Under the pieces are notes generated by a model that saw nothing but the letters and a program-made list of their open reading frames with translations, had not been told where the DNA came from and made no database searches. Shown one piece after another: positions 9,871 through 39,363 of a stretch of DNA of 64,000 nt (position 1 is the first letter of the stretch; each line of letters starts with the position of its first letter). The stretch comes from Bryum argenteum (taxonomy: Eukaryota; Streptophyta; Bryopsida; Bryales; Bryaceae): NCBI GenBank assembly GCA_037043015.1, contig CM073321.1, positions 16,675,001 to 16,739,000 of the forward strand, read 5' to 3'. Both the position numbers and the translations under genes were made by a program.

Positions 9871-10276
9871 AAACTCGATATTCGTTATTTTGGGAGATTT
9901 TCAATCTCCCAATTTAATGACAGTTTAGCTCGAGTCGAGCTAAACTACACCCTCAGATTGGATACTTCACAGAAACTGGCCAAAACAACTAATTGTTAAA
10001 CTTTCAAACGGCCATAACTTACTCAAATTTTGTCCAAATGAGGCATATGAAGTGTTTTTTGACATCTATGTTGTCTGTAGATGTCATAAAACACCTCATA
10101 TGCCTCATTTGGACAAAATTTGAGTAAGTTATGGCCATTTGAAATTTTTGACAATTGATTTTTTTCTGCAATTTCAGTGAAGTACCCTATTTGCTGGTAC
10201 AGTTTAGCTCGACTCGAGCTAAACTACATTTTTCCCAAAATCGTGGAATTTTCCCAATATAATGAATATCGTGTTT
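9871..10276. mobile_element. Foldback MITE, 406 bp, almost a single inverted repeat
   Basis: The left end AAACTCGATATTCGTTAT and the reverse complement of the right end AAACACGATATTCATTAT match. Inside, CAGTTTAGCTCGAGTCGAGC pairs with its mirror near 10200. Further in, GGCCATAACTTACTCAAATT pairs with AATTTGAGTAAGTTATGGCC, meeting near 10068. The whole unit would fold into one long hairpin. Possible target duplication TAAAA. It interrupts the gene X frame between MYHI and KIWPR, so it arrived after that gene was in place. Long hairpins of this kind can feed small-RNA pathways. Confidence 0.85.
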
Positions 10277-17060: not shown

Positions 17061-18762
17061 TAAAGGGAGAGATGAGGCAGTTGCTGAATTGGAGGCATTA
17101 CGGAACACCTTGAAAACGGTAGATTCTACACCGCTCCAAGAATGCACACTACCATGGCTGGGATGGATTCACCGACTTCAAGATAGGGCGAGTTTGGTTT
17201 CAAAGGCACAAGACAATCTCAAAGCTATTGCAGCTAAATCAAGAGATTCACGTGAAGTTGTAGATACTTCATTGAAGAAGTTTCATGAGATGAGTACAAA
17301 ACGGCAATATGACCCTATAGAGGTCACTTTTTGGGCGATGCAGAAGATATGATGGAGCGTACAAATTACTATAAGATGGGGAGAAACAATGATGTTGATT
17401 GGACTTTGGAGATAGAGGAAGGATGGGCATTGGAGCATCAAACACAACCGTTTCTTTTTATTTTCTCCAAAGAGAGTGGAAAAGGGAAAAGATGGTTTGT
17501 GGCACAAAGTAACAAATTCAACCGGCTTAGGAAAGGAGTACAGGAAGTACGATCATACTCTGATTGGAAGAGCTATGGTCCTTGCAAAATTGGAGGAAGC
17601 CGCGATATACCGGACTTCGATACCGGAAAATTCTTTCCAAGATGTGGAGGTCTCTTATTGGAATGCGGTGAAGAAGTTTGATAAGCGTATCGATGACGCC
17701 ATTTTGTTTTGGAGGACATGTATTTAATATCCAAAAGAAGGATCATTCATATGAATGGATGATTTCAAACGTATTGTATACAATGTCTTTGCACGAATCG
17801 AGAAGGCCATGAAAATCTTACGTAACAAACAAGTGGATCCTAGTAGAAAGCACAAGAGAGAAGATGGCGAAGATGGGGACAATAGTTGGCAGGCGGAGAT
17901 GAAAGGCGAATTTGCAGCCGTGGATCGGGAATATGAAGAGGGCGGTAGAATTGCCCATCCAAGTCAAAGACCGCGTACTCGTAGTATAGCTCAAATCGAT
18001 CAATCGGATGTACTTTCAGTTTGAACGGATGTTGGACCTTTAGTTTGAACGTATAAAGATAGGCTCTTCCTAGGTTGTATGGATGTTGTTTTAAAAATGA
18101 TGAAAATGCCACCATTGACTCATGGGGCATTATTTTTGAAGTAAAGGGTTGCAATCTTTTTGGTTTAATGTGCATTTCTTCTCTATGCTTGAGAGTCAAG
18201 AACATCATGCGACAGGTATGTAGAGAGATATATAACTTTTCAACACATTAAATATAGTCATGTAGACAATAGAATCTCCCCATGCATTTAAGGCCTTATT
18301 CATTAAATTGAGAGACATTGAAGTCTCAATTTAATCTCTGCTATAAATAGACTTCTAAATATGCAAATTAAATTGAGACACTCCATTAAATTGATACTTT
18401 TTGAGTGTTTTGATAATTGGCAATTCTTTTTAAATAGATAAAGTGTTAATATCAAACATCCCATGATACATAATAGAAAGTGATTATTTGTTAAACCAAT
18501 TTGAGACATTCCATTAAATTGAGATTCTCAAAATAAGTTTTCAAAGGTAAAGTTTTAGTTAGAATAATATGCTATTTATTTCCAAATTGGATAGATGAAG
18601 TAAAGACAAAGTCCGCATTGCACAATCTACTAGCTAGAATACAACTATATCTACTAGCTAGAATACAACTATGAAGGAAAGTATTCTATCTATTTCCTAC
18701 CAAGCAATATCATAACAAAGAAATGCCCCTTTAGACACTAAGACACTCTTCAATGTGAAACT

Positions 18763-21633
18763 TCAACATCGAAAGCATATATCATCCTTCTGGAGTAGAT
18801 GCGTTGTCTTAGAGTTTGTCGTAAAAGCATTCACTGATGCCTTGATGATGTCAATTTGGAGCTTTGGTATAGCTATCTTGGGATCTGAAGTTGATTCGCG
18901 CGCTCTTGGCTTCCAAGCTGTCATGATACATGATGTGTTCGACCATGTTGGATCCATTGTTCGATCTTCCCGCCACACATTCCCCTTTTTCTGTGTCCCA
19001 TCCTACATACGTGTCCATATTGATATGTCTGCAGGAGCCCAATATTGAATTTGGATCATATGCATATGTCCGGGATCCGGACTTGGATTTGTTAAGGCTC
19101 TAGTAAGCCATAATGGCCTTGGATCATCCTCTGCGGGACGCACTGCAACAGAATATCCTGCAAACGTATCGCGATTTACACGGAATGAAGCACGCGGACG
19201 GTCACGGACACGTCCAACAAAGGGTTCATCTTCCGCATCCTCTTCCTGTACAGTGCCATCTCCATGCATGAAGTCAACCTCGTCAAGGACAATTCTAGAA
19301 GCCGGCCAAAATCCATCAACTAAACTTTCACGTGGCTCGATCGATGCATCAAGAGCAACTCGAACACCTTTCCAATAATCTCTTGAAGGATTGTTTTGCC
19401 GTCTAAATTCTCCAGAGAGATCCTCATCAGCCATTCCTGTCCAATGTGCAATATACCCATCTAGCCCTTTCTTGACATCATTGAGTGAACCTGTATGTTC
19501 TAGGATGACTGGTTTCGGTAAACCAGATGGAACACAAGGTCTACCATCTTCAGTCTCACCCCACAAGCGAATCCCTTTGCCATGCTCTGGTAGCCAATCC
19601 TTGTTAGTGCACAAATTCTTGTACTCCATTATAGGCCACCCATTCGAATCCATGCAGAACTTAAATTGCTTTGGCTTAGAATGACCCTCTAGAAAGTCAC
19701 CGCCTGTGCCCAGCTAACCATCGCAAAATTCCTTGAAATTGGGAACCTCCTCAATTAAATGGGGAATGACAGGTTGTGTTTCAGAGTCCATAAAGGATTT
19801 CATAAGTCGCGGGATTGTTGGGTAGTCATTTGTATTCAACTTTGAGCTCCATCGGCCAAACATGGCATCTATATCTTCATGCCTGTGTCCAACTATAAGG
19901 AAGTTCATGTAAACTTCACGAAAAATCCCTTTGTATACAAGGAGTGAACAAAAGGCCAAAAGCCATCTATTCTTGTTGTCCCCTGAAGCATTATCTAGCT
20001 GCAAGACTAGTATAGGGGGCAAAGCTTGAGCAGGGACAGGAGCATCAGGTTGAGGAAGAGGGGAGTCAACGCATGTATCTGAACCTTGCAAAACTGCACT
20101 GGATAATCTCGATCGAGTATTCTCATTTAAAAAGACCCTACGAGATGAATTCCTAGGTTCTCTTTCGAGATCACGTAGGAGCTTTGCAAGAGATCCAATG
20201 GTTGAGTTAGAATTTGCGGGGAAGACGTCAAGACCATAGTGCGCGTATTTAACATCTCCATGACCATGTGCAATCATTCCTGTAACTGCAATAGGCATTT
20301 GTGTGTAAGAATCAGTTGCCTTGGTCTTGTGAGAAAAGTGTCGAGACGCGGTCTTGGAGTGATCCATCTTATCATGAATGATGGTCAGCAGCTTGTGAGG
20401 AGAATCATCGGAAACGGTCCGATTGAAATAGTATAGTTCTCTATGTGCCTGTTGAGAGATGAGGTGACTTTCCAATTTATTTCACCACTTTTGCTGTGCA
20501 TACGATAGAGGTGTGCAAGTGCTTCGAAGTTGCTTGTATCTATCACACAGGCCACATCGAGAAAAAGTATCACCTGGGGCCTTTGGGGCAAACTCTGGAA
20601 ATGAAGAACGCCGAATGTTACTCAGGCCACTTGAGGAAATTGGCGACAGCTCGAATCTTCCATTCATCTCATTGATGTGAGCTAACTTGTCACTCTAACA
20701 GAACACAGATGGCAACACCATGGCATGGACTTTTTCACCATTTGCCAGCGTCCTTGTCTTGTGAGGCATTTTGTCGGCATCAGAAACTATTAGCGTACGA
20801 AGCGTCGCAGCTGCTTGGACCGTATGTAGTTGGGGTTTTTTCAACCCCACATTCCCGTGACCCTCAGCTTGTTTCCCACTCTAGGACATTTCCCTGTACC
20901 TGTAGAATGTAGCTCTAGAAATACCATGAATGATCCACCAAGCGGTAGATGTAGGGCACACTTCTCTACCTTTCAAGGTGATCCACTCCAAGTCTGCCAG
21001 GTCCTTGTGGATCTGTCTATGGACCTCAAGAAGAAAATTCTTACGAGCATAAACCCCATCATTCACATGCGGTTGAGAGCGGATATCCTGAACATGTCGA
21101 CGGGGAACTGGTTGTAAGCAATTTGCCTCACAACACGATTGTGTGGAGATCGCAGCGATAGATCTTTGGCGCTAGCAAAGCATCTTTCTTGGGTGGAGCA
21201 ACATTCTCTACTCTATGACGCATAGAGTCATATGAACGAACACCTTCCAACCTTTTTGATTGACTGCTTTCATAGCCTCCTTGTACTTATGAGTCTGCTC
21301 ATGGTTGTAGAGACTCACGCCATCAAGCAAAACATGTTTCGTGTCCCATGCGTGGAAGAACCACATGTGTCCGGATGGGAAATGCTCCTCAGATAGGGAC
21401 TCCGCGATTTGCATCATAACCTGATTTTCACCAAGAATTAAGTCTTCTATTCCGTCATCTACATCCGGATCCAGGTTCTGGCACAATGCTTTGGCCACGT
21501 CAAGACCTTCATTGTTACGAAGGGTCACAACTTTTAAGATCCATTTAGCCCCGGGTATGCCGTCGCAGACTGCGACGCCAGGCGCCAAAGAAGGCAATGA
21601 CCTTGCAAACTCTTCGGGACGATGCATATCCAT
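18763..21633 (-). pseudogene. DUF7869-like transposon protein, 957-codon frame with 7 stops
   Basis: A single frame runs from the ATG at 21633 (MDMHRPEEF) to a TGA at 18763-18765 with no indel. It is interrupted by TAG at 21208, 21172, 20881, 20695, 19714 and 19003, and TGA at 20482. In order: Cys-containing QSCCEANCLQPV, CPTSTAWWIIHGISRATFYR, RCGLCDRYKQL (zinc-binding-like), TIIHDKMDHSKTA, ILVLQLDNASGDNKNRW, FLIVGHRHEDIDAMFGRWSS, and a C-terminal PLWLTRAL...IQIQYWAPA segment. The LDN and GHxHEDID motifs are what I know from DUF7869-type proteins. A DDE/RNase H-fold transposase role is plausible but inferred. A splice acceptor stands just before the ATG. This is the best candidate for the element's mobility gene. 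Confidence 0.75.
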
Positions 21634-21634
21634 C

Positions 21635-22827
21635 CTGCAAGAAAATCAACAATATATAACACAATTAAGTTCAATTCGATGAGTGAAAGAATAACAATTC
21701 TTCATGTCGAACGCTTATTCCGACCACCGGCGAAAATGAAAGTTAAGTACCATGAATATGTTAAAGACGAGAACAAGAGCGCTATAAGGGACACGAATCG
21801 TCAACTCGACGATACCATCTTAATAGTTTCCGTCTCCAAGCTGTGGAGTGAAGAAAGAATCCTCACGAATCGTCGAGCCGACGATATCCACAGCAAGTGA
21901 CTAATAGTTTTCTTACATTCCTACAGACAAAGGCTATCAAATCTAACTTATATACTACTTTGAGTTGTTCGTACAACATAGAGTATATCTTGATAGCCAT
22001 TAGCCCAAATAATCGAAGTTATCGTTGACCCCACGATAACTTGACGAACGACCACATATACTACGATAAAGTACTCCCCCGCCGTGGATAGATGAGGTAT
22101 CGTTGACCCGACAATAACCATCGATGGTAATAATAGTTTTAAACATAATGTACTACCTTGTGTGCAGCTTGGAAGATATCGTGGACTCGACGATAGCATG
22201 CCATGGATGCAATAGTTTAAATTTACATTCTCATATTGGAAAACATATATATTATCGTCGACGCGATGATAATTCGGATGGTACTAAACGACATTAGAGT
22301 TATCGTCGACACGACGATAACCTGTTATACATAAGAGGTTATCAAAAGAGGTTACCTTATGAGTTATCGTCGACACGACGATAACCTGGCATACTAATCA
22401 TTTAAATGTGAATTGAGCTACTGGTAATCATGATGGTTATCGTCGACTCTACGATAACCAGGCAAAAAAAGACTGCACGCCCCCCGAGGACTGCACGCCA
22501 CCGCGAAGACTTTACGCCCTCCGAGGCGACCCTCAGGGTTATCATCGATCCGATGATGGCACAAATCCCAAGGCATTTCCGAATTTTTCGGCGTAAAGGA
22601 CGCAATGTACGTTGCAGTCGTTGTCAACACAGGTTTGGTAACAAACGATAACACGAATCTGAAGAACAATAAACTCAACCGATATACTACGAAAAAATCC
22701 AAGAACAATAAACACAAATAGAGATGATGAACAATAAACAGAAGCAAAGACAATCAGCTTGACAACAAGAGGCGGATTATACATTCTATACAATCGCAAA
22801 AGGAAGTGTCGTAGAATGTTAGCTAAC
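21635..22827 (-). other. Predicted 5'-UTR intron of the DUF7869-like gene
   Basis: On the reverse strand a donor CCGCAG|GTTAGC stands at 22827 and an acceptor TTTCTTGCAG at 21635, one base before the ATG. The intron holds ten copies of the 17-bp palindrome. A very similar donor (TTGCAG|GTTAGT) precedes the equivalent intron of the divergent gene at 26996-28104. Splicing is predicted from sequence only. Confidence 0.5.
21797..22557. repeat. Palindrome cluster A: ten ATCGTCG-NNN-CGACGAT sites
   Basis: Seventeen-base sites (7-3-7, dyad symmetric) start at 21797, 21869, 22021, 22099, 22178, 22254, 22302, 22366, 22439 and 22541. Sites at 21869, 22302 and 22366 are perfect (ATCGTCGAGCCGACGAT, ATCGTCGACACGACGAT). 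The rest differ at one to four arm positions, mostly C/T or G/A. The three central bases vary freely (ACT, AGC, ACA, ACC) and the flanking base is often T or A. Spacing is irregular (48-152), so this is not a tandem repeat. The cluster lies in the predicted 5'-UTR intron of the DUF7869-like gene. Confidence 0.9.
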
Positions 22828-22967
22828 CTGCGGCGGAATTTCAGAGCCAACACCGTGAAGTAGCGCCCAGGAATTGATAGAAAAGAAGAGAAGAAGAGAG
22901 GAGGAGAGAAAGCGCGGAAGAGCAGCGCCTCAAGCCGAAGGAAGAGCAACGCAAGAACTTGCCCGGG

Positions 22968-22976
22968 GTTTATACA
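22968..22976 (-). promoter_or_regulatory. TATA-like box for the DUF7869-like gene
   Basis: The reverse strand reads TATAAACCCC here. It is followed about 30 bases on by a pyrimidine-rich leader (CTCTCCTCCTCTCTTC) and then the predicted first splice donor at 22827. Order and spacing suit a plant promoter. Confidence 0.4.
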
Positions 22977-23159
22977 ACGCAAAGAGCAGTGAGGAAAAAG
23001 AATGATGAAAGCCAAGGCAGTTCCTCGCGCGAAGAATACCAACATTCAATGGATGAATTCAGCGCGCAAGGAAAGAGCGGAAATAGTTTGTCGCCAAAAA
23101 TAAAATTCAAACGGTCATTGTTCAAACGGATCTTTGTATAAGACATATTCAAGATAAGA

Positions 23160-24178
23160 CCCGGCTAATAAATGAGGACCCAGAACTTTCGTAACGAACT
23201 TATTAGCAGGATCTTGGGTAACGAATATACGTCCCAAATAGCATCCTCCATGAAAATCCGCTTTGTGAACAAATTCATAATTAAAGGCTTACAAAATAAA
23301 ACCTCAGGGTTTAGGGTTTAGGATTTGGGGTTTTGGTGTTAGGAGTTAGAGTTTTAGGGTTTAGGGTTTAAGATTTTCTGGTCAAGAATTTAGGGTTTTT
23401 ACGGTCAATGCTTAAGGTTTTAGGGGTTAGTAAACTTAATGTATGGATTTTCAAAGTAAAGGCTATAAGCTTTCCGCTTAAATAGTCGATAAAAATTTAA
23501 AAGATAATGTAATGAAGGTAAGTATAAGTAAATGTTTTTGTTTGGTGTTAATGAATGTAAAGTTTTCTAATATTGTTATCACTCATTGACCATTTTACAT
23601 TTACAATATATAACATATGAATTTTAAAATTTGGCGTTAGAAGAACGTTTGTAAATACTTAAAGTAGCATAATGTAGGTCGAATATCAACCATAGAATAC
23701 AATATGAGTAAAATGTATATTATAAAAAATATTCTAACTTTACATACGAGACTATATAACCAAACTTAAATGCAATAGTTAGCAACTTTATATAGAGTTT
23801 CAAATTTCATAACTTTATTTGAATTGTGTTATTGTGTAAAGTGCATATTTATGTAGTTTTATAGTACAACCTATTCTAGTTTGGACTAATAGAGTGAGTG
23901 TATTATTAAAAGCTTTCAAACTCTTCTCTACTAAATACCTAATAGCTCTACCATGATACAAAACTATAAACCTATACAAGATGTCATAGGATGTTACAAT
24001 TATGTTACAACTTATATTCATGTACAATTACTTAAGTAACTAGATTGTTTTTTCATAATTTTCTCAACTAATTCTCTAAGAGTCCTTATAAGACAATTAT
24101 ATTCGCTCTATTATTTCTATTTTATAATAAATAATAACTTAAATTCAGACTAATAAAAGATAGTTGTTTATGTGCCCT
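23160..24178. other. Non-coding stretch in the 18-kb element
   Basis: Upstream region between the two divergent genes. It contains degenerate TTTAGGG-like repeats (23306-23420) and AT-rich sequence. I see no gene. Confidence 0.5.
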
Positions 24179-25161
24179 TTAAAGTTCATAGTATCTTCTC
24201 CTCATAAAATATCTCTTTAGTCTCATCCACATTCTAGTTTGATCATATGGTATCACATCTCCTCTTGAGTCTACTCCTCCATGGGCTATATATCCATGAC
24301 CCACAGACTTATAATAACCTCTTTTTGGGTCTGTTTGACTGGACCTCCCCTTGTTCGGAGCAGTTTCATAGTATATGTTTGCTTGAGTTAATGTGCTTTG
24401 ATATGCAATCACATCATTATTCCATATTTCAGGTATATAAATAAATAAAACATGATTGAGTGATAAAGCACTTGGATTTAATATTTTATTATTTATTATT
24501 TTATTACCATCTAATAATAATGAAGCACTAGATGTTGTTGGTATAAGATGATTGTCTTCATAAACTTCTTGCCGCGCATATTCAAATTTGATATTTTCCC
24601 AATATGGTGTTTCTTTTTTATTTTTATCTGCTAGAATGTTTGTGTAGCTAATAATAATTCTCATGTTAGTTTTTATATCAAATTTCATGAGAAAAGATAA
24701 TTCAAAATGTCCTTTTTGTATCAATGCACATTGAAGTATCTTGTTTCAAAGAGGCATTTATTTTTTGTTTTCTTCACTTTTTTTTGTAAAAAGATTTGTA
24801 ACCGATGGAAAGTATCATGAAAATCCTGTAAAGTAGTTATTTCAATATCTTTTGTGATAAATGTATCAAAGATATATTTTATGTGTTTTTGGAAATCAAG
24901 GTTCAATAAATTTTCACATATAAGAAAACGTGATGTTTTTTTAAGGCAAGCACCACAAATTTTGTGGAAAAAATGAACATAATATTGTTGTTTTGCAAGA
25001 ATAAGCAATTCCACTTTAGATGTTCGTTCCATAAATATTTTATGGAAATACTTGCACCCTAAAGTTTTTTTGCATGGAATAACATACGAACAATCGAACA
25101 ATTTTTGAGAGTGTTGTGGGGTTTTACAAATGACATATTTAACTAAATATGGATAGTCCAC
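24179..25161 (-). pseudogene. Unrecognised AT-rich gene remnant, two frames
   Basis: Two adjacent reverse frames, 25161-24721 (146 codons) and about 24724-24179, abut at a frame change, suggesting one gene broken by a frameshift. The first is Lys/Phe/Cys-rich; the second ends with a basic tail (MWMRLKRYFMRRRYYEL). Their base composition is far more AT-rich than the flanking element genes, and no palindromes occur within. I recognise no family. A nested foreign insertion is possible. Confidence 0.35.
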
Positions 25162-25675
25162 GGTCTACAACTAAGAACAATGGTTGCAAAATGATTTCTA
25201 TAATCTCGGTTCTATGAAGATACTCTTCAAATATGTAGACTTTAAGGTCATGGATGGAGGGATCTCCCCTTGTTTTAAAGTCTATAAATAAGCCCAAAGT
25301 CCATATTCAGTTAAATGATGCATACAAGCTCTAGTTTTAAAATCATATATCAACTTTAAAACATTTTGAAATTCTATGAAGTTAAGGGTAATCACTTATG
25401 CAATTCTAAGCTTTTTTGCCTCATGCACTTCAAGCTTATCTATCTCGGGAATAAAATGAATAATTATAGACTAAGGAAATATAAGGCAATAAACTTTAAT
25501 ACACAAAATCTCTATAAATATTATAATGAATATAATATACATTCTTAACATTATATGTAGTTATTTGAACAAGCTTTTACTTTGCTTTTCAAATTAAAAG
25601 GGTTTTTAAAAGTAGGAAATGTAAAAGTCTATAATAAATTTTAAAAATATAAAAGTATAAATTAAAAGTATACCA

Positions 25676-25839
25676 GGGGCTTCAACTACCATAGTTGGGG
25701 CCCCAACTAGTGCAGCTGAGGGCCCCAACTACTACACCTGGGGCCCCAACTAGTGCAACTGGGGGCCCCAACTAGTGCAGCTGGGGACCCCAACTACTAT
25801 AGCTAGGGCCCCAACTAGTGCAGCTGGGGACCCCAACTT
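25676..25839 (+). repeat. Tandem repeat of GGGGCCCCAACTAGTGCAGCT units
   Basis: Seven or eight units of about 22-24 bp with GGCCCCAACTA cores. Variants read GACCCCAACT and ACTACTATAGCT. The core GGGGCCCC is itself palindromic. No coding role is seen. Confidence 0.85.
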
Positions 25840-26995
25840 GTTGACGCATTTTTGTGCCAAAATTAGGTGTCGCCCTTTGCTTCTATCTCATGTGTGTCTT
25901 TTGGTGATAACTAGTCAAACTTCATGTCTCGTAAGTTGCACAACTTAGTATGGGTCGTCTCGACAGTAGGGCAAGCTAAAAGGCATATAAGAGGGTATAA
26001 GAAGCTACAGAGCTCATTCTATTTTTGTTTGCACAGACCCTTTATGTAGTTTTATGATGTTAAAGATGGATTGTAGGTGGGGTGATCACAAAATTTTGCT
26101 TTGCAGAGAGTCATGGCCTCTTAACCCCTCTTTCTATTCTTGTGTTCACTCACTTGATTGCGGATCTTGAGTTCTTGCGGAGCACTACCAAAACCAACTC
26201 GAGTCTTGACCTCCTCCACACTGCTTAGAACCTCCATGTAAGTATCAAAACTTACTAGCTTAACATGTAAACCTCATATGGCAAACTTATCTTTGTAATA
26301 AGGTTTTTGTACTCATTTTTTTATCACCATCTTTCCATGTTCATGGATGTTCTTGAAAGATTCTTAAGTAGCAACATACATTCAAGAACACAAACGTAAA
26401 AAACTAAACTTAGTGTTGAAGCAATTAGTTTTCTAACACGAAACAAAATTTAGGATGAAAATAAATAAACGCAAAACCATAAGCATAATTTTGTGTTCTA
26501 TATAAAGTTTTGTAAATTTTGTAAATTTTAATTTGTTTTGGTTTTCTAAATTTTCTAAATTTTTGATTTGTGAATTTTATAAATTGATATTTCTAAATTT
26601 TTTTTATATCTTTTGAAATTATCATGTGCATAGGCATGGTCATGCATGACCATGCCCATGCCCATGATAATTTCATGTGCATGGTGGCCATCATGGGGGG
26701 CATGATGACCCCCCTGCGTCGCCTTTCCTGCTCACTTTTCCTCCTTTCCTGCTGTCATGATTTCCCTTGTTCTCTCTCGCATTTGCCGCAGCTGTCGCAG
26801 CGTTTGCATTTTCGTTTTCTTTTGTCGCAGCTCAGTCGCAGCTCAGGTTTTGTCGCAGCCGTCTTTCTCGAAGCTCGCTGGCGCGCTTTGTTTGCTTTTG
26901 TGCAACGCTGGTGTTGCTCGTTTGCTTTCGCGCAGCGTCAAACATTCTGCAGCCGAACTGTTCTCCTGAGCGCCAAACCTCCCTGCGCGTTGCAG

Positions 26996-28104
26996 GTTAG
27001 TTTATCGCCTCCACTTAGGGTTAAGTGCTGAAACTCGGCGGGTTGTTACTTTGTGCACTTTGATGCTGATGCGTTCGTGTTTTATTGCGTGTTTTATTGC
27101 GTGTTTTATTGCTTGTTTTGGGACAGTCGGGGTGCCGGGATTTGCCGATTACTGAGACAGTCCGGCACTTAGAGCAATTCGGGACAGTACGGGTGGCGAG
27201 ACTTCGCCGGATTCGGGACTGGCATCTCTGCAATTCGGGAGCACTTCGGGCTATTCTAGAGCACTTCGGCAGTTAAAGCAATAAGGGTTTAGGGTTTAAC
27301 ATTCAAGAGGAGGTACGCTTGAAGCTTCTTTTACAATTTTGTACTGGTAATTCGCCACCATAATAGCTTAGAGAGCAGTGGCTATATTGTCGGGTCGACG
27401 ATACAAGGCTCGTAAAGGCCTTATTGTCGGGTCAACGATACATGGCTCCTGATGGCCTTATCGTCGGGTCGGCGATACAAGGCATCAAACAGCCTTATCG
27501 TCGGCACGACAATATAAGGCTCCTACTGGTCTTATCATCGGGTCGACAATACGAGGCTCCTAATGGCCTTATCGTTGGGTCGACGATAGAAGGCATCGAA
27601 CAGCCTTATCGTCGGCATGACGATAGGAGGCTTCAGACAACCTTAAACGTAGAAAAATCTAGGAAAACCATACTAAAGCAGAATAAGAAAATTTATCGTC
27701 GGGTCAACGATAATAAAATTAAATATACTATCATGCTCTCAATCAATAAAAATCAAAGTTACGAAGCTATCGTCGGACCGACGATACCAAGGTTGGGAGT
27801 AGCTAGATGAGAGCTCTATAGGTCAGAATCAACGCAACTAAAACATTCATTCCATGAGAGTCCATGAGAGCATATCGTCGGCTCGACGATAAGGTCTGCA
27901 GTTCATTCAAACGAGTATTCTTAAACTGGAATTTCGTCGTGCTAACCATACCCTACGTAGTATAGCAATGGTTACGCTCTTTTTTTATCAAAGATATCAG
28001 AAGACTGCATCATTGGGTCGACGATAGGAAGCTTAAAATCAGCATAGAACTAATTGCGGAGCGGCAAAACGTCTAACTCGAATCCTTGACGGTGATGTAG
28101 ACAG
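26996..28104 (+). other. Predicted 5'-UTR intron of the unknown (+) gene
   Basis: Donor GCGTTGCAG|GTTAGT at 26996 and acceptor GTAGACAG at 28104, six bases before the ATG at 28110. The upstream GC-rich exon-like sequence (about 26700-26995) looks like a transcribed leader. The intron contains eleven copies of the 17-bp palindrome, mirroring the arrangement of the divergent gene. Splicing is predicted only. Confidence 0.45.
27386..28025. repeat. Palindrome cluster B: eleven ATCGTCG-NNN-CGACGAT sites
   Basis: Sites start at 27386, 27423, 27460, 27497, 27534, 27571, 27608, 27695, 27769, 27875 and 28009. The first seven are spaced exactly 37 bases apart and are separated by CAAGGCTCnTnAnGGCCTT-like linkers, so part of this cluster is a 37-bp tandem repeat. 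The later four are irregular. Perfect copies are 27769 (centre GAC) and 27875 (centre GCT). The central triplet is most often GGT here, against ACT, ACA or AGC in cluster A. Confidence 0.9.
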
Positions 28105-29552
28105 ATAAAATGGCGGAAGTCGTAGCATACGACTACAAAGTCACCCTGCACCACCTCGAGCCGTTCGTGAATCCGTTGGGAGACGTGCCATTTTTCGAAG
28201 AAATGGCCGAGACATATGGAGATCTCTGGTAGTTCAGGCCCCATGTTCAAACATAGAATTTTGGAGTCAACAAATTCAAGAATTTTGTCTTCATTTGATA
28301 CAGGGCGAACGGATCATCTACTTATCTGCCCTCGAATCACAACGAGAAGGTCACCATCATCGAGTTCCACAGAGACATCTACATTGTCATCGTGCTCCGT
28401 GCAGTGGACGAGAATGGTTTCGAGCAAGATCACTGCCACTCTATTGTCATCGATACAACAAAGGAGCATGGAATTTTCGACATTCAGGACCTGATGACGT
28501 ACTTTGAGGGGTCCGAAATGGCCTCTCTGAATAGCGAGTTCATTAGGTTGGGATATGTGGGCGGACCATGTGGCTCTGGAAAGTCCATCGCGAATCGACT
28601 CATGAGGATTTTCCAAACACTCGATCGATACGCCCTGGCTAACGTCTGCTCAGAACCCGCTGCGCGACGAACACCAGTGCAGCCGAATCGGGGTGCTTCG
28701 ATTTCACGCCTGAATTTGGCGTGCACCCCTTCCGGATCTGCAGGCAGAGGAGTAACACCAAGTCAGCCTCGGTCGGAGGGTAAGAAGAGAGCACCACCTT
28801 CTACAGATGGAGCTGTGTCGAGCCGCAAGCGCAAGAAACCCGCCTCAGCCGCACCAAGTACTGCAATAGTACCAACTCAAACTACAGGGAGTTCAGGGTC
28901 AGCATTGACAAACGTGACTGCTAGGGCTGGTACTTCTGATGAGAATCTGGAGGAGTTCGAGAAAACCGCGAACTTAGAGAAGGAGTTCTGGGATAACCAC
29001 AAGGACTGCTTTATGATGAACATGAACCCGATGGAGGTAGATATCGATCAGTGCATACTGGCCAAGGATCAATATGTTATCCGAACGCTGTAGCAGGACA
29101 TGGTTGAAGGAGTCGCCAGAGAACTTGTCTAGATGATCGATGTCAAGCAGAGATAGAAAATCTGCCTAACTCTAGTGGATTCCAAGGAGAAGCTGCTAGA
29201 GAACAAGCCAGAAGATTGGGATGAGATCAAAGACGAGAAGTTCATGATCATCAACGGGCAGGATAGCGTTTGGGCATCAAAACAGCTGCAGAAAGAAGGA
29301 TGTGGAGAGGTTCGGCGCAACAAGCTCTGCAAATGGAACGCTTACATCATCTGGACATTGGACGCAACTAAACTTTGAGAGATATCAAAATTCTACAACA
29401 TCACAAACTACCTAGATCATGCACAACCGTCATGGGGACACCAAATAGTGGCGTGTAGAAATATTTGGATAGCCCTAAAGCGGCCAACTGATGTATTTTT
29501 CAAAGCGGTCACGAGGGGTAATAAGGCGGAGCACAACGTCGTCAGGTTCAAG

Positions 29553-29655
29553 GTAACATTTTGATCCCAAGTGGCTATCGTTGCATCGACGATACCTCTT
29601 ATGCTGACGTTCATCTTACTTCACAATGCTAACCTGAGCTAATTAACGTACGCAG
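29553..29655 (+). other. Intron 1 (103 bp) of the unknown gene, with a palindrome
   Basis: AAG|GTAACA to CGTACGCAG|AGC. The reading frame changes register exactly across it (frame open on both sides), which supports a real intron. One 17-bp palindrome copy lies at 29577-29593 (centre CAT). Confidence 0.75.
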
Positions 29656-30981
29656 AGCTTCACAGATGCTGTGACGGAGAGATACCAGAACATCAATCCA
29701 ACATGGGATGGGGCACACATAAAGTCCGCAGCCAATCTGAAGAATGAGATTCAAATCATCACCCTACCGGACCACAAGTTTGACTATTGGGAAAGGTTTC
29801 TTCAGAAGCATGCTGATGGCGAACTAATCCACCCCGTCTCAAAATTGCCTTTCAACAAAACGAAGACCTATAAGTCCAAGAATAACAAGTTGAAACAGGA
29901 GTTCTTCAAGCGATGCGGATGGTTCACCGACACAGACTTCACCATCATGTCAAGGCATCTACTTGGAGAAACACCGGGACGGACGGCACCATATCCGAAA
30001 GTCATTGTTGGGAGATCTCTGGTACTTGTGGCGGACAACCTTGCGTGCGTCGACTGGGTGGCGAGAAGGAAGCGCACGAAAGTTGTGCTTGAGGATATCA
30101 TTTCAATCAAGCCCTCCCTCAAGCTTATCGACGTCGGCGGCGACACCATTGACGCCACATGGAAGGCGTGGAAGATTAGGCACCGTTTCACGTCGGCGAG
30201 CTGGGATTTTCTCTTGACATATCCCAGCGCAGAGTACTACAGGAAGCGCCTCCGCAACAAGGCAAAGACAAAAAATGCGGTCGAGTTGGAGTAGCAGCAT
30301 CCAGAGGTGGTGCACATGTACAGAAGGTTCATGACGCTCAAGTACCGCCCGAAGGAGCCTCTTGAGAGTGTGCAGATCAGAGGGCTAGATTTCAAATCGA
30401 AGGCTTTAGTCACGAGCAGCCATTACACCTACACTTCACGCGTGGTGAATCTGGCACTACTCGACTTGCGCAATGTCCCATTCTCGCAACTGACCTAGAC
30501 GAGCGGAGTCGTGGACCCATTCCTGGACTATCTGCGGCATCATCTAGAGCCCAAGATCTCGGAGCCGAACGTCTAGCTGATGGTCTTGTCTAGAAAGGAA
30601 GACCAGAAAGTTGCATCGAAGTTTGCAGCTAGAGAGCTCCCTCAAGATGAGCCGTCTCTCTCCACGTACGTACCAAGTAAGGCGGAAATGTTGGACAACG
30701 TCAGCAAAAGAAAGACCGCACCGGACGTGACACTTCTCTTCCTGTTTAAGAAAGGAAGTGAATTAGCAAAGGATGCGACGAAGTGTGTCAAGAAGAGGTA
30801 TGACACACCAGCTAATCGCCTGTACTATATAGAGGCCGCGACAAATACGGAGGCAAAATGGCGGGTGTATCCAACTGAGCTTCGCATAGAGTTCTACTTT
30901 GAGATACTTGCCGCGTGCGCGTCAGTGAAGGAGAATATCATTGGCATTCACGCGGGCGCGAAGTTCCTCCTTGCCACTAAG

Positions 30982-31121
30982 GTAACCACTCGTAGACTAT
31001 TCTTTGGTATCGTGGGGTCAACGATAACCAAAGCTTTATTTCAACTCTATGCTTTATAGTAGTGTGAATTATTGTCGGCTCAATGATAATGTGATCTAAC
31101 AGTGTTCCATGTATATGCCAG
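30982..31121 (+). other. Intron 2 (140 bp) of the unknown gene, with two palindromes
   Basis: AAG|GTAACC to TATGCCAG|ATG. Again the frame is open on both sides in different registers. Palindrome copies are at 31009-31025 and 31071-31087. Both small introns carrying copies argues that the motif is wanted outside coding sequence. Confidence 0.75.
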
Positions 31122-31785
31122 ATGTTCGGAGCTCATTACTATGGGTTTGTAGATCGTCACGACGTGAAGAGCGAAATCAAAATCCTGGCTCTTGCAGAAC
31201 GGCTTGACATGAACAACTTCATGCACTCGAACTCGCCGTATTTGATAGATTTTGTTCCTCCGGTCACGCGGAGTCCCGTAATAGTGCACTTTGACTCACC
31301 TCCGTCGCCAATGATAAATCTAAAATCTCTTGTTGAAGGTGGGCTCGGAGTAGTGCGCCAACCTGAAGAAGTAGGAGCGCATGTTTCCAATGATCCGGGC
31401 ATCCAAGGCATCAATCAATACGGGACGAACACATTCCGAGTCTGCTCGAGGATGAATTTTGAGCGAGCTTTCCCCCTCGCACTAATAGATGACCAGGGGG
31501 CCGGTTCATCTCAAAATCCCATCGACATGGGGACAAATTCTGAGTACGAGGCGCAACGCAACCATCGTTTAGATGACAAGGATTCAAATGTCGATGCACA
31601 AGCGGACGATATTGTGCATTTGCAGGTCACTCCCTTGGAAGGCCAACAATCCCCCTCACAGGATCAAGGCGAGCATGATTTCTATCATGACGATGCCATC
31701 CAAGATGATACCGTCATCAAATTGGCTACGAGAGATTTGGGAGAGCATGGTGTGGTCGCCCAAGTCGGTTCTCAGAATGTCGAGG

Positions 31786-33365
31786 ATCGTCGGTCCGGCG
31801 TTGCTGAAGAGCCTGTCGGGGAACCTGGTCCTGACCCCGAACAAGAGCAGGCGTCAGATCGTCGGGGCGACGATGTACAGGAGGATGTGGTGGACCTCCG
31901 ACAAGCCGGCGCGGGGGGTGAAGAAGTCGATCGTCGTGCCGACGATGTGGAGGAGGATGTTGTGAATCTCCCTCAAGCCGGTGCAGGGGATGGAAGGGTC
32001 GATCGTTGTGCCGACGATAGACAAGTTCAGGATGTTGATACCCAACATGGCGGTGCAGGGGTAGAACCGGTGGAACAGGACCACGCTATAGTTCCTACAC
32101 ATGATGGAACTGATCGTGGTAAAGGCCAAGATGCCGCGGATCGTCGACTCGACGATCGGGACGCAGTGAATAATCGGGTATCCACACATGCGGGGGCAGA
32201 GAGGGCCATACGCGGACAAAGGCAAAGAGGAAATTCTGCGGGCAGCAGTAGACAGGTCATTTTAGAGGCGAGGGTAAACCGGGCGTCCCGCAGGCGTAGG
32301 CAGAGAGGTCATCCGGCTGGCGAGGGCAAACAAGATAATCCCGAGTCGCAGGCTCGCGAAGTCGTGGGCGGCGATGGCGATGTAGTTGTGACCCAAGTTG
32401 TCGAAGATCGGGAACCGAGTCCCTCAGAGATCATTCATCTTCCTAGCAATGACGAGTTCGATATATCGCACTCATCGGACGAGGATGACGAGGAACCCGT
32501 AGATCCGGACGCTGTGGAGTACAAAATCACGACGGCCCCCAACGGCTTGCGAGTCAAGTTTGAAAAGGGATATTGGGAGAAGGACGAAGAAAGGAGGGCG
32601 AAGAGAATCAGGCGGGCTCAGGAGAAGGAGGAGGTGAAGGCCGAAAACATGAGGTTAGCTCAAAAGCAAGCCCAGTCGGACAAGATAGTGGAACAACTGC
32701 AGGCTCAGATGGCACAGATGCAGTTGTCGTTGCAGAGCCAGACCGGGCTCAATCTTGGTGCCGCCGTACTGTCCTTTCCAGTGCTTCCTCTGTCGACATC
32801 CGCCCCCTCTACCTCAATCCCTCTCTTGTCGACATCGTCCGACCCTCCTGCTGAGCTCATGGTCGTGACCACGCCACCGCCTCCTTCTAGCACATCGGAA
32901 CCTCTACCTCCTCTGGTAGAACAGCAGCCGCCTCTAGCGACTTCGGATCATCTCTCCAAAGATGAAGGTGCTCATGTCCCCTCTAGCACTGCCGACTGCG
33001 CTGCTCCAACCTCAGTGGAGTCACTTGTTCGTTGAGCTGACGATGAAGGCCCCGCGGTATCACCTGCTCCAACTTCGGCTGTGTCCCCTGATCGTTGACT
33101 CAACGATACCAGTGGAGCAGTCCCCTCTGCAAACAGTGACGTCATAGAGTCGACTCCTCCCTGCCAGTTGTCAACGATTCCATCCACCGTTGAGGGGCCT
33201 TACGACCTCTGGGTGCCTGAGACGGCTGCACCACTGGGATCTCCTGCCGTACAACATCATCGCCATGACGATAATGTTGATGATGAATCTCAAGAGAGTC
33301 CTCGTATTGAGGTCTAGCCAACAGCCGGAGATGCTCTCGCAGACTCGGATCGTCGAGCCGACGAT
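31786..33365. repeat. Palindrome copies in coding exon 3
   Basis: Copies start at 31786, 31858, 31930, 32002, 32140, 33028, 33091, 33256 and 33349. Perfect arms occur at 31858, 31930, 32140 and 33349. All are in the same codon register, GAT-CGT-CGn-nnC-GAC-GAT, giving DRRxDD or a close variant. Two carry CGA-to-TGA changes inside the motif (33033, 33096). Sharing the DNA motif with introns means the constraint is at least partly on DNA. Confidence 0.85.
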
Positions 33366-34031
33366 GGTGATGAGGAGGACAAAGTCGAGAAAGTTGACTA
33401 CGAGTTGGGAGTTGACAACCTGGAGGTTGGGAGCTCAGAACTTCAAACGGCTCCTGAAGTTCCTTCTCACGACCCCGGTGCAGACGACCAGGTACAGAAC
33501 TCTGACCCTTACTGTTTTGATTGATTCCACGCCCCCCACTGGAGTCTCTCATGCCGTGTGAGCGTAGCCAAACTCCAGATTGCTCTTTGTATCTAATTTG
33601 TATCTTATGCTTGTTAATAGGATATCAACTTCGGTTCTTGAGTGCTCATGGCGGACAACATTCAAGTCCGTTGCTCGCGTACTTGTATTGTAGTGTACTG
33701 CCTAGTGTAGAGAGTAGATTCGAGTGCCAACTGCGGCTTGCGAAATTATCCCAAATGTATTATGATATCCTTGTTTATAATGATATGCCTATTTTGAAGG
33801 CCTTTTTCCGCATACATGCCTAATTGTCTTTGCTTGTCAATGTATATGCTGCACAGTTACCAATCAGTGTTTGCGTGCCACTCTCATTTGAACTGAAAGC
33901 AATCTCAAATGGGAGGCCGGAGTTGATCAGAACGACTAAAAGCTCCTGTCTACTCCCTGGCTCTCCCATTTCTTCATTACCCGAGGTAACTTCTTGATCA
34001 ATCTCTCTGTGTCTTTTGTCTTGCTCGAGTA

Positions 34032-34878
34032 GATGTCGAGGATCGGGTAGCTCTCGAGCGTGCGATAGAGATCCTCATAAGGACCCTTCCGCCTCCGCCG
34101 CGGAGGAAGTGCTTGAATATTGTCCTTGACCTGAATGGCGTTCTCTGCCATTCTACGTATAGGTCCAACCACAGTGGACCCAAACTGTACACTTTGGGGG
34201 ACAATATTCGCTCGCATAGGACTTACTGTCATTGGTCCTAAAGTGGTGTTCGCGAGGAAAAATGTCGGGGATTTTCTCCGGCAAGTTTCCGACATCACGG
34301 AGAAGGTCTTAGTGTGGACTTCAATGATGAAGCATAATGCTGAGGGTGTCGTTGGCCACCTCTTTAGGGGTGACAAACATCCTTTCAATGTCCTCTGCCA
34401 AAAGGATTGCACCACGATCCAGCTCCCCGACGGGAAGTCCTTTCAGCTCGGCCACAAGGTTGTGTACATGAAAGTGCTCTCGGAGGTTGTGTTCAGCAAT
34501 CCTAGTGGTGACACGTTCTTTTCCCCAGACAATACTCTTCTCATTGATGACTCTCCCCAAAAGAGTATCTGCAATGAGAACGGTAATGCTCTGTTCCTTC
34601 GCACCTAGAGTCTTCGGGATGGCGAGAACGACTTCCTCATGGAAGACCTTCTGCCTTGGCTAAACTGCCTAGATTCCCACGAGGGACATTTGCAGCGATT
34701 CGTGGAGGACAATCGCATTGGCCAAAACCCGCTACGTCCTCGTGACCCGACCGCCAAGAAACTCATCGCCGGCATGTTGATGTCTTCGCAAACCATGGGG
34801 ACTCGATTTAGTTTACCGGAGATGGGCCTAGTCATAGAACATGGGCGCACGGTTACTAGGAGATCTAGCTTTCTGTAG
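34032..34878 (+). pseudogene. FCP1-like (HAD/CTD phosphatase fold) relic
   Basis: Two frames read one FCP1-homology domain. Frame one gives RRKCLNIVLDLNGVLCH (HAD motif I, DLNGVL as in plant FCP1-like proteins). After a frameshift near 34200 the other frame gives RKNVGDFLRQV, VLVWTSMMKHN (motif II), a Lys-containing stretch (HKVVYMKVL), LLIDDSPQKSICNENGN (motif IV, DDSP) and LLPWLNCLDSHEGHLQRFVE. One in-frame TAG (34606) splits the last part. Family members dephosphorylate Ser of the RNA polymerase II tail or similar substrates; this copy cannot. It lies just behind the unknown gene, same strand, inside the 18-kb element, so it is probably captured cargo. The overlapping reverse ORF is a shadow. 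Confidence 0.75.
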
Positions 34879-34899
34879 CTTGTTTTCCCCATCTACATT

Positions 34900-35900
34900 T
34901 ACATCTACATTTTGACTTTTCCATCTACATTTTGTAATTATTGTACCATGATGTACACTATGTATTCACCGGAAGTTAATAATAAAGGAGTTGGATTTAC
35001 CCCTAATTCTTTGTATTATTACTATCGGTTGTCCATGGATGAATTTTCTAACATTGAATCTACTGTGATGGACTATGCTTTTTATTTCACCTTGCCTGAC
35101 GCGGTTTCATTTTATTTCTGCGTCAAAAATGAATGTTTCTGTACATAGGATGAATGCATGCGCGTAGCTCTGCCGCGTCAGAGGCCATCCACGAGCCTCC
35201 TCTCGGGGTTCGTGTCGGAGGGGGGCAGTTGCGGCACTGCTGTCGGCTCCGTGCCATACCTCCTCCGGTTTGCCGCAGACGCTACATCTGCGGCCATAGA
35301 CTACTCCAAAGGGCACATTGAAGACGACGTAGTCGACAGCCGCCGAGTCGCGGATTCGTCAGGACCGCGACTTGCTCTCCCTCTCCACTAAAACGGACAT
35401 CACCGACCTTAGGCAATTGCTTCTCGCCTATCCCTCGAACTAGTGAGGGATCAATTTGCAAACTAGTCCTCCTTCCTATTATGACGCTCAAACCTGAATC
35501 CCTCGTGGCCGCTCCAAGTTCTGCTCAAATTTACAAGGACATCAGCTGCGAAGCAAGTGGGGAGTGCGCGAAGAGCCTACTTCAACATCGTGTCCGCGTT
35601 TTGCCAGAGCGTCGTCTTCACTTTCTGACATTAACTGCAACACCGGTCACGAATACAAAGACTCCCAATACAACGGTGTCTAGAGACTCCAAACGACCAC
35701 CTCGCAGATCACGGTCCGTCTCCGCTTGTGGGCCCTCTGATACCATCACTCCAGTTCAAAGGTCGAAGCTGAAGGTCTGTGCAGCTGAACAAGTTGGCAC
35801 AAGCGAAGCCTGCTCGTGGAGAAGTAGGCCCCTCCATCGATCATGACGCGACGATATTTTCAAAGGGCTTGCAAAGCTCAGAGGACGAGAAGCAGCTAAA
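34900..35900. other. Unresolved coding remnants
   Basis: Open stretches occur on both strands. On the forward strand near 35600-35930, pieces such as DINCNTGHEYKDSQYNGV and LNKLAQAKPARGEV sit in different frames with TGA/TAG between them. They suggest the decayed 3' part of a forward gene, but I cannot fix frame or family. On the reverse strand near 35300 a GRRCSVCGKPEE sequence is the only zinc-ribbon-like hint. Confidence 0.25.
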
Positions 35901-36370
35901 CTTAGTGACACAAAATCCGATGTGCACTGATTGATCTACTATGGCAGTAGAAGTCATGTTGCAGAAGATTATACATGTAGACCGTTTAGTAGTAGTATAT
36001 ACCCGTACATTAATTCTTTTGAGGTCCACTATGTTTGTTGACTTCCAGCAATGCTATTTTTGTATACAATTACGTATAAAATATATTACCCTCTTTGAAA
36101 AGCACTCTCTTTTTCTTCTATGAGCAATTGTTTCATTTATGTTTCATAGATGCATGTCAGTTTCATGCAACCTACACACTATTAATGCTAGAGTTGAAGA
36201 ACAGTAGATGTCAATTGGAGCTTCTTCAGTTCAAGATTTGAGTATTTACCAACTCATCAGTTCTACATATCTTCGGGTTCAACAATTATTGATTCACTAG
36301 ACTTCTACATCTGTTTCTGAAAGTCTCAAAATGTACATTTTGTCTCAATTTAATGAATAAGGCCTTATTT

Positions 36371-39363
36371 GGAGTATAACAATAAAGTACTACAAAGACT
36401 ATAACTACAATATTTATAATAAGGATAAGTTCTACATAAAGATGCAAAATTCAACCACTCATCAAGACCAGAGGATTGTTCATAATCGCTATCTCCCTTC
36501 ACTTCAGCTCCACTAGATCCCGTACGATCATATTCATAATCGCTCGGAACCTCTTGTTTGAACTTGGGCTCGTACTCTGAACATTTTATATTCCCATATT
36601 TATGCAAAGTAACAAATTCTGGGAGATTAACGGTGATCTTTGGTTTTTTTGGCGGAACAATTGGAAGCGTTGTAGATTTACATTTATGCGACTTGGAAGT
36701 GCCAAGCATGTGCTATAACCACGTGGCAGTACGAGGAACATTGGCATTTTTTAGATACCTGCCCAAAGGTACATCCGAGTCACTAGAGATGCTGCCATAT
36801 TTGGCTCTTGAAAGGGATACCAAACCCATAGAGGATTTCTCCAATGTTGTCGTAACCCTTACAATAGAGGGTTGAAATAAAGCTCGGGGAGTAGCACATG
36901 GTAAAGATAGTTGATCCTTACTACAAGATGCGATATTCTCTGCGACCGGATCAGAGCTCATAGAACTGGCACTAGTATTACACGCAGTAGTTATTACGTC
37001 TATCACCTTCTTTTCCAACCCTAAACCACTAGCGATAACAGGTGGGATGTTATTCGATTTGTCCATGCCGCCTTGAGTCATTAACCGTGCTAACGGCTGC
37101 TCATCCTCTAAATCATTTGCCGAAGCACCATATGCGATAAAATCACCCTTAGCATCGTGAATATCTAGAGCATCTTCATCATTTGAAGCGGGGAAGAAAG
37201 TCATATTATTGTCTTTATCACCAAATTCAAAAATATCATTGTCATTAAACAATGAATTGTGCTCGACAACTTCCTCATCGTTTTCATGTACTTGGTCTTC
37301 CTCTAAATCCAAGTTCTCTCTGTACCACCGCCTATCGTCACTCAACTTATCATTCGCAAGCAATTTTGAATTTGAATATATGCTGATGAAGTCACGAGCT
37401 CTCCCCGATAGTAACTCGTTCCGTTTCTTGTCGTGAACATAAGAGTAGCTACTCCAGTTGCGTTTGCAAGCCAACGAGGACACGGTCTGTGCTAGTATTC
37501 GCTTTGCAAATGGAGAGTGAAGTTTAGCACAAGCACCTTCAAACTCCCACCATGCATGTAGAGCTAGTTTTTGAGTCTTAGGCTCGAGCATGTCACGGAG
37601 CGGTGGACCCCTTACTCGAAACACGAGAAATTCTCTCAGCACGTATGCATAATCCTCCGGTGGACATAGTTTTTGTAAAACATGCTTGCAAGATATTGTA
37701 AGATTGGGATTGTCAGCTAACTCTTGTTCATGTAGTAAATAAGAATTTAGAAGTGCAGCCGCGCCATGTAAATCAATTGTCATGAGCCGTTACCGATGGT
37801 AAAACTCTCCTTTGCGGTGGCCACCTCAAGTGGTTCCAAAGAGAATGGTGGTGCATACAAAGTATGGACATGTCTCTCAAGATCAGGCATGATAAGCCAA
37901 GCCTTGCCCGTACTAGGAGCCTTGCCGTCAAATTCTCTCAGAGCGTAGACTACGGGGGCCACCATATCCCGTAATCTTTTGCATTGCTTCCAAAAATCAT
38001 CGCTCAACACCACCTTTTTGATCTTACGGGAGAATATAAGCTTATCTCTAGCAGATACCGTCTTCGTCAAGGCATAGGCTGTGAACATAGGATCAACAAC
38101 AACTTGCTCCAATGATATCTTGACCTCCAACAAACAATCTATCATTATGAATTGGCTAGCAAATCTTGTTTTTCTAGGCATCAATAAGCTGAATTTTGCC
38201 TTGTGTTTACAAAACACAACTAGGGGCATTTGCCGTCTCTGGTTAAACTTAAGCATTCTCTTGGCCATGAACAAAGTTTACGCCATCCATCCAGCCTTTT
38301 GCCATTCCTCCAACAACAAGTCCATTGCATGTGTTGCACACCCTTGCCTAAAAATGTGCGGATATTTCTCAGGGACTATTCTGGAGGCATTGAGCATTAC
38401 GGAAGCATTGTCTGTGCATACTTCGACAATGTTCTCTGGTCCAACTTGTTCTATGTACTTCAACATGAGAGATGACATGTACACCGCTATTTTTTCTATG
38501 CCAGTATTATCCACAGCTCCAAGAAAAAGCTCTCCAGCTTGAGTCACAAGCATCGCATTTACCAAACTAAGGGCGACTAGTCACAAATGACCATCCATCC
38601 ATGGTCAAAGTTCCTCCAAACTTCCAAAGGCTCTCCGAGAGTCTACTATCTAGTTTCTTTTGTAACTCGGTCTTTACTTCTCCCAATAACCTTGTCCGAA
38701 TGTCATGGTAAAATGGTGGAGCATAGAATTTTCAAAATCTAGCAGTCTCCATCATAGCTGCTTTGAACGCATCATTCCGGGCTACAAAAAATGGTATATA
38801 TTTGCTTCGTAGAAAAATTTCGCCCAAAGTTTATCCAACTCCCGCCTATCCGCTTCTGCAAAAGTAGCTTCAATTGAAGATTGCTTGGTTTGCTTCATAG
38901 ATCCAATCATCGGGCGAGTATCCTTAATTCCCCTCATGAGGATGGAAGAAGCAGAGGTTGGCCCGGCCAAAGGATTTGCTGAATTCATGGGGGTGCCTAG
39001 AGAGGACCCTATACAAGAGTCACTTCTAGGGATTTCTAGAATGTCATGTTTTGAGGCACCCGGAACTTCCGCGGATGGAGTGAGGGAACATTCACCAAGA
39101 AATCCGTCCATTTCTCCGTTATATGGAGGGAACACCCCGCCACATCTTAAAAAAAACTGCCTAATTTCTCTAGGCAGCTTTGGGCAAAGGGCAGAATTCG
39201 AATCCCGATGTCCAGGAAATTTCTCGTACCCATAATGACTCACATTCTGACTCTTCTTTTTGGAAAGTATTACGTGACATAAGGAGCATTGTATGAAGGA
39301 GGTGGACACTTTGCCTTCCTTCTCGATGTCTCTAAACCAAGGCTCATATGGAGCAGGGCCCAT
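36371..39363 (-). pseudogene. hAT transposase (DUF659 and hAT dimerisation), broken
   Basis: From the start at 39363 (MGPAPYEPWF): CSLCHVILSKKK with downstream His/Cys, a degenerate BED-type zinc finger. Next, in a shifted frame, comes PFFVARNDAF and TMDGWSFVTSRP (catalytic-core start), then LGAVDNTGIEKI, VEVCTDNASVMLNA (conserved TDNA) and GCATHAMDLLLEEW of DUF659. The C-terminal WWEFEGACAKLHSPFAKRIL and SSLACKRNWSSYSYVH are the hAT dimerisation block. Stops include TAA near 38277 and TAG near 36711, and the frame changes several times. The reading frame runs to the boundary of the 18-kb element at 36366. It probably belonged to the same host element as gene X copy 2. It cannot mobilise the kinase-carrying hAT. 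Confidence 0.85.

Follow-up and report, generated by a model that had tools for sequence, protein, structure and literature searches.

Transposons related to one another within the genome of the moss Bryum argenteum bear different palindromes that share one architecture and lie at equivalent places, upstream of both element genes. The starting point is a 64-kb stretch of contig CM073321.1 (positions 16,675,001–16,739,000 of assembly GCA_037043015.1; hereafter the window), which contains a decayed 18.1-kb DNA transposon with clustered copies of the palindrome ATCGTCG-N3-CGACGAT. We refer to this element and its closest relatives as class A, and sister families in the same genome carry three further palindromes. 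We propose, at roughly even odds (about 0.5), that the palindromes are operators of a transposon-encoded self-recognition system, in which a dimer made by the element, likely the product of its second gene (gene 2), would keep the element's promoters expressed against silencing.

At up to three mismatches the palindrome occurs 34 times in the window, and 33 of these matches lie inside positions 21797–33365. Dinucleotide shuffles of the window averaged 1.5 matches and never gave more than five, and none of 100 shuffles reached 34. The sole match outside this interval, at position 48680, has three mismatches and is at chance level. An original prediction, made from the letters of the window, had counted 10, 11, three and nine copies in four groups, and these sub-counts are exact: 10 copies at 21797–22557, 11 at 27386–28025, three in introns (29577, 31009 and 31071) and nine in exon 3 (31786–33349). 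Scanning the window for any palindrome centred on CG-N3-CG with at least six of seven flanking bases paired returned nine, of which seven are class A, all within the element, and two (9924 and 10203) belong to another class. The class A sites are arranged as follows:

21797–22557, no strand: site array 1, 10 palindromes, 164–908 bp ahead of the start codon of gene 1
27386–28025, no strand: site array 2, 11 palindromes, 101–724 bp ahead of the start codon of gene 2
29577–29593, no strand: one palindrome in gene 2 intron 1, from the motif scan
31009–31087, no strand: two palindromes in gene 2 intron 2, from the motif scan
31786–33365, no strand: nine palindromes in a gene 2 coding exon, in one shared reading frame and in part on a 72-bp tandem unit

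The first seven palindromes of array 2 are spaced at 37 bp. In the coding exon, four perfect palindromes encode D-R-R-x-D-D, and a stop falls within two others in the window copy. An Rfam scan of the window at the gathering threshold returned no family.

Relatives were collected by protein search, with 150 matches per gene piece (149 of 1654 candidates scored for gene 1 and 150 of 777 for gene 2). Gene pairs, matched by eye, are divergently oriented, usually with ∼7–14 kb between the genes. Class B, with 70–75% identity to the window in gene 1 and 50–56% in gene 2, has the same site as class A. Class C (∼65% and ∼35%) has ATCCCCG-N3-CGGGGAT in two arrays, class D (∼59% and ∼33%) has TTTAGCTCG-N3-CGAGCTAAA, and class E, found via a Physcomitrium protein, has TTCAACTCG-N3-CGAGTTGAA. 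In groups F and G the palindrome is of the D type, with an outer flank unlike that of class D. From N3 outward, the half-sites read CGACGATA in class A, CGGGGATAA in C, CGAGCTAAA in D and CGAGTTGAA in E; the CG adjoining N3 is constant across the four classes and the remainder of the half-site varies. Across the 258.8 Mb of genome searched, the class A site occurs 1079 times at up to one mismatch against 15 for the reversed pattern, and the class C site 1891 times against nine at the same threshold; counts for class D are 8410 against two, and for class E 1861 against zero. Hybrid patterns with one arm from A and one from C were found 89 times in the forward and 75 times in the reverse arrangement at up to one mismatch (controls 6 and 12); two of those listed are exact, and most of those listed are, by eye, one change away from an A or C site. 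Because symmetric sites far exceed these hybrids, symmetry is a property of the sites.

The classes keep to their own sites. We compared 60 A/B loci of ∼3.6 kb each, picked by protein similarity alone, with three class C loci (two elements), three class D loci (two elements) and two loci each of E, F and G. Two of the A/B loci (L005 and L035) are the window's own, and some pairs of loci are one element. At up to one mismatch, none of the 72 loci held another class's site: the A/B loci contained 108 A sites and zero C, D or E sites, while C loci contained 52 C sites, D loci 44 D sites, E loci 15 E sites, F loci 26 D sites and G loci 17 D sites. At up to two mismatches an A site was present in 52 of the 60 A/B loci and a site of another class in none; at two mismatches there was one D-like match in each of three E stretches. 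The motifs of classes C to G were discovered in the same stretches that are scored here, so that in those stretches only the absence of other classes' sites is a test.

Genome-wide positions follow the same division. Confinement to one 18-kb element, as originally stated, holds within the window and fails in the genome at large, as the 1079 sites show. The distance test used 82 distinct listed class A places, all exact matches in the first 8.1 Mb of the contig that contains the window (C1, 44.1 Mb). For 70 of them a listed A/B-class gene lies no more than 15 kb away, and for 76 no more than 30 kb; 2000 rotations gave means of 4.6 and 9.1, and 0 and 4 rotations, respectively, reached the observed values. 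The original prediction had named two outcomes as telling against it, a motif common outside the element family or lacking from other copies of the element, and neither check refutes it: besides the 70 of 82 listed sites near an A/B gene, 49 of the 60 A/B-class loci contain a site at up to one mismatch. Of 74 listed class C sites, none has a listed A/B gene within 15 kb and 52 are close to one of the three class C copies of gene 1 on the list; none of the 82 listed class A sites is close to these three copies. Fifty-six of the 60 A/B loci (L005–L064) are on C1, many with stop codons, and the class C to G copies used come from several contigs; the contig may represent a sex chromosome (U or V) that does not recombine. 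One class A element on this contig (L090, C1:37806550–37825760) is inserted beside a class E palindrome, with the duplication TTAA.

A foldback repeat in the window (around 9900–10245), whose inverted arms span 9998–10148 and meet near 10073, carries the two palindromes of the other class mentioned above, both in the F/G form CAGTTTAGCTCG-N3-CGAGCTAAACT (at 9924 and 10203). It has 705 candidate places genome-wide; 40 were scored, all matching, with 80 matches on both strands. As this repeat has D-type sites, some class D sites may sit outside gene-bearing elements. The repeat is perhaps a non-autonomous element that borrows sites.

Sites occupy equivalent positions in the different classes. 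In class C they lie 186–1018 bp ahead of the start codon of gene 1 and 76–493 bp ahead of that of gene 2, and in class D 183–952 bp and 59–1374 bp ahead, respectively. Class E sites lie ∼116–1140 bp ahead of the point at which the gene 1 match starts, and class E sites also precede the first gene 2 exon that was recognised; in groups F and G, coverage is of the stretch upstream of gene 1. Classes A, C and E have further sites between the exons of gene 2, and class D has five sites past the start codon of gene 2, where introns are expected. The covered part of gene 2 exon 3 in a class C copy has no palindrome.

Within the sites, the arms carry 1.6–2.0 bits per position and the flanks 0.3–1.0. 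We measured mismatches in 185 class A sites from the window and 58 A/B loci at up to three mismatches. CpG positions mismatch at 12.3%, with 86% of these changes being transitions, and other positions at 2.4%, which agrees with an earlier remark that many changes are C/T or G/A at CpG. Such a transition excess is the pattern expected if dead copies are methylated. The earlier statement that each copy has four CpGs is right for class A and wrong as a general rule, since the four classes share only the CG flanking N3.

The host of these palindromes is a DNA transposon, and the 18-kb element of the original prediction is real: it has inverted ends at 18290 and 36366 and is flanked by the duplication ATTT/ATTT. 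Its structure is as follows:

18290–36366, no strand: DNA transposon, from its inverted ends, the points at which matches in other copies stop, and 4-bp duplications
18290–18320, + strand: left terminal inverted repeat, AAGGCCTTATTCATTAAATTGAGAGACATTG, from end comparison
36336–36366, − strand: right terminal inverted repeat, from end comparison
18286–18289, no strand: left 4-bp target-site duplication, ATTT, from copy comparison
36367–36370, no strand: right 4-bp target-site duplication, ATTT, from copy comparison
18763–21633, − strand: gene 1, DUF7869 protein (PF25273), presumed transposase; low-coordinate end from the original prediction
28110–33524, + strand: gene 2, several exons, candidate site-binding protein; 3′ limit from the original prediction
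28986–29552, + strand: ParB/sulfiredoxin-like region of gene 2, with a GQH box that is GQD in the broken window copy

Most matches to the element ends in other copies break off at 18289/18290 and 36366/36367, and the ends begin AAGGCC. In a sample of the window copy and ten others with both ends paired, the 4-bp duplications are identical in nine of 11 copies, one base off in the other two, and varied in sequence. A hAT transposase piece (36716–37789; PF05699, 2.4e-7) adjoins the right end of the element.

Both genes are broken in the window copy. A tblastn search places gene 1 at 18823–21645, and PF25273 matches 19717–20481 at 3e-40 (138 bits, against a cut-off of 26 bits). In the B-class locus L021, gene 1 is a single frame of 956 residues that matches the same family at 5.5e-46 (157 bits, same cut-off). 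A predicted DUF7869-domain protein is thus encoded inside the element. The 82 homologues of gene 1 include the moss DUF7869 proteins P0021 and P0039 (Physcomitrium patens) and P0023 (Ceratodon purpureus), which belong to the same presumed transposase family. The gene 1 profile gave no meaningful match among solved structures.

Of the two genes, the fast-evolving gene 2 is the better candidate for binding the sites. With a spliced class C gene 2 as query, tblastn matched the window at 28155–29552, 29659–31014 and 31137–31244; the unbroken class C gene, spliced in silico, reads through 1370 residues without a stop to the end of the stretch covered. Its best-conserved part (for most copies ∼42–46% identity of A/B to C, and 32% of D to C) contains F.I(D/N)GQH..A, then N..N further on, and the C-terminal part has many charged residues. 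In two aligned parts, with one copy per class, identity is 52 and 57% for A–B, 32 and 32% for A–C, 25 and 30% for A–D, and 26% for C–D. Divergence of gene 2 therefore tracks divergence of the site, and A and B, which have the same site, are most alike.

What the conserved box may be related to is a lead, and concerns the ParB/sulfiredoxin proteins. The link began with a phage tblastn match (E 0.3, 22 residues) among 16 records, most others of which matched a helicase loader; it was pursued because one record names its protein ParB-like. Compared by hhalign with the phage ParB-like DUF6551 family, the box profile reached a probability of 96.2 over 33 columns, a value that is post hoc and pairwise because it followed from that weak match. 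The DUF6551 profile in turn weakly matches the solved structures of Noc (E 0.0017) and sulfiredoxin (0.0047). Across nine members, the box matched PHROG 1033 (ParB-like) in two, with a best E of 0.0046, and the Pfam family DUF6551 weakly (0.17) in one; two other weak Pfam matches (0.046 and 0.066) were taken for chance. Pfam scans of gene 2 pieces gave no family above its cut-off, and an NCBIfam scan of the box in three members gave none either. Searches with gene 2 found one protein (P0083) in a large protein library and no relative in IMG/VR, and a search of plasmid sequences gave no match.

The original interpretation stands in part. A dyad-symmetric predicted binding site, and a logic like that of the VANDAL transposons of Arabidopsis, have strong indirect support from sequence comparison, as the sites are element-specific, promoter-proximal, symmetric and different between families. 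From these observations we infer that the element encodes a dimer that binds the palindrome arrays in front of gene 1, in front of gene 2 and inside gene 2; the likeliest candidate is the gene 2 product, which contains the ParB/sulfiredoxin-like box. Bound protein would act on both promoters, such that the element and same-family copies stay expressed despite host silencing. Protein and half-site would change together as families split while the CG-N3-CG core remains, and each family would thereby respond to its own protein alone.

Several results weigh against this proposal. At three mismatches the A/B loci give seven C and two D matches beside 157 A matches, and A/B loci without a site number 11 of 60 at up to one mismatch and eight of 60 at up to two, each locus covering ∼3.6 kb. 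Two D-type sites in the window, those of the foldback repeat, lie outside the element and were tied to no element, as was a class C site with one mismatch at window positions 38–54. Because gene 1 diverges as well, co-divergence points to neither gene in particular, and the small number of independent classes makes it a pattern and no test of the binder's identity. In gene 2 we recognised no DNA-binding domain; among solved structures its profile had no match with an E of 10 or below, and PF02195 gave zero matches across the whole genome.

The strongest rival keeps the same sites and the same element-encoded binder and reverses the effect: both promoters would be repressed, as autorepression or copy-number control. 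Palindromic operators near start codons are typical of autorepressors, and the layout of the sites fits this reading nearly as well as it fits anti-silencing. We nonetheless consider repression clearly less likely, as arrays of 8–21 sites, together with sites between exons and in coding sequence, exceed the needs of a simple operator.

Binding by the gene 1 (DUF7869) protein, with the sites acting as internal transposition enhancers or in regulation of the gene itself, is somewhat less likely again. Gene 1 also diverges along with the motif, and it includes a stretch, CPTAWWTIHGISRATFYRYK, that we read as helix-turn-helix-like, without a domain match. The window sites, however, are at least 3.5 kb from one end of the element and at least 3.0 kb from the other, and so are not subterminal; their places are the promoters and the stretches between the exons of gene 2.

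Host transcription factors or insulator proteins would account for the promoter-proximal position of the arrays. Such binders are improbable given four different palindromes in sister families and the scarcity of sites away from elements, with 70 and 76 of the 82 listed A sites within 15 and 30 kb of an A/B gene. Slightly harder to sustain is a functionless by-product of tandem repeat growth. It draws on the 37-bp unit of array 2, the 72-bp unit of the exon and the near-regular spacing of sites in other classes, but array 1 is irregularly spaced and has kept its arms amid unconserved flanks, and growth of repeats would have to yield one architecture at equivalent places in four classes. Least probable is selection for a hairpin or cruciform in RNA or DNA, suggested by perfect palindromes with a 3-nt centre: sequence is largely fixed inside each class, and the 12 double changes seen in class A (eight compensatory and four not) against 13.3 expected show no excess of compensatory changes, which argues against hairpin function.

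Elsewhere in the window there is a retroelement integrase piece (44773–45753; PF00665 and PF17921, both below the curated cut-off) and a protein-kinase-like piece (15230–15952; PF00069, 1.1e-4, below cut-off).

Among known systems, PIF/Harbinger elements make a 3-bp TWA duplication, and the 4-bp duplications of varied sequence exclude that identity. En/Spm (CACTA) elements have CACTA ends, a 3-bp duplication and subterminal 12-bp sites for TnpA, which affects promoter methylation. The moss element resembles them in having repeated short sites for a predicted element-encoded regulator and differs in that its sites are internal; AAGGCC ends, a 4-bp duplication and window sites at least 3.0 kb from the ends rule out CACTA identity. 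ParB/Noc-parS systems serve bacterial chromosome partition or occlusion through clustered palindromic sites. Clustered palindromes and a possible ParB-superfamily nucleotide-binding box are the points of likeness, whereas those systems are bacterial and here a possible eukaryotic transposon protein matches over a 33-residue box. It is conceivable, though we think it unlikely, that the element carries a partition-like system of its own, in which a ParB-like clamp would load at its own CG-N3-CG array as at parS, spread and exclude silencing, with the two invariant CpGs sensing methylation and at least four orthogonal codes in one genome. If true, this would be more than a variation on the VANDAL-VANC logic.

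In the literature searched, which leaves subscription papers and preprints outside its scope, we found no paper on DUF7869. The same literature held no paper on DNA transposon superfamilies or KDZ in Physcomitrella and none with the class D half-site as a text string; on moss transposable elements with palindromes, ParB or anti-silencing it held, judged by listings, nothing relevant.

VANDAL-VANC is the model case of transposon anti-silencing proteins that co-evolve with their target motifs. VANDALs are Mutator-like, with a MURA-like transposase and a target duplication of ∼9 bp. The moss element is no VANDAL: the L021 gene 1 frame matches PF25273, with no Mutator family among its matches at an E of 5 or lower, and the duplication is 4 bp (nine of 11 perfect), not ∼9 bp. 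VANDAL elements have the genes VANA, VANB and VANC, and the VANC21 and VANC6 motifs are 8–9-mers (YAGTATTAY and AGTTGTCC/AC) in one orientation (PMC5735166, PMC10398659). These motifs belong to an element-encoded system, are short and family-specific, cluster upstream of genes and in introns, grow in number through tandem repeats and differ between related families (PMC5735166, PMC10398659). The moss families show this VANC-like logic in short motif arrays upstream of genes and in introns that are family-specific, tandem in part, and different between sister families. What sets the moss element apart is its CG-N3-CG palindromes, DUF7869 gene, 4-bp duplication, ParB-like candidate and coding-exon sites. 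The original prediction had already noted that motif, gene content and element type differ from VANDAL; within the reach of the tests, so do the ends, the target duplication, the presumed transposase gene, the design of the sites and the protein proposed to bind them. VANDAL-VANC is the one known precedent for the logic. Four natural specificities in one architecture make protein–DNA co-evolution directly testable, and the CpG on either side of the centre in all four classes makes methylation sensing testable. If our proposal is correct, the logic of VANDAL-VANC arose in an unrelated type of transposon, with another protein and a half-site code that can be read.

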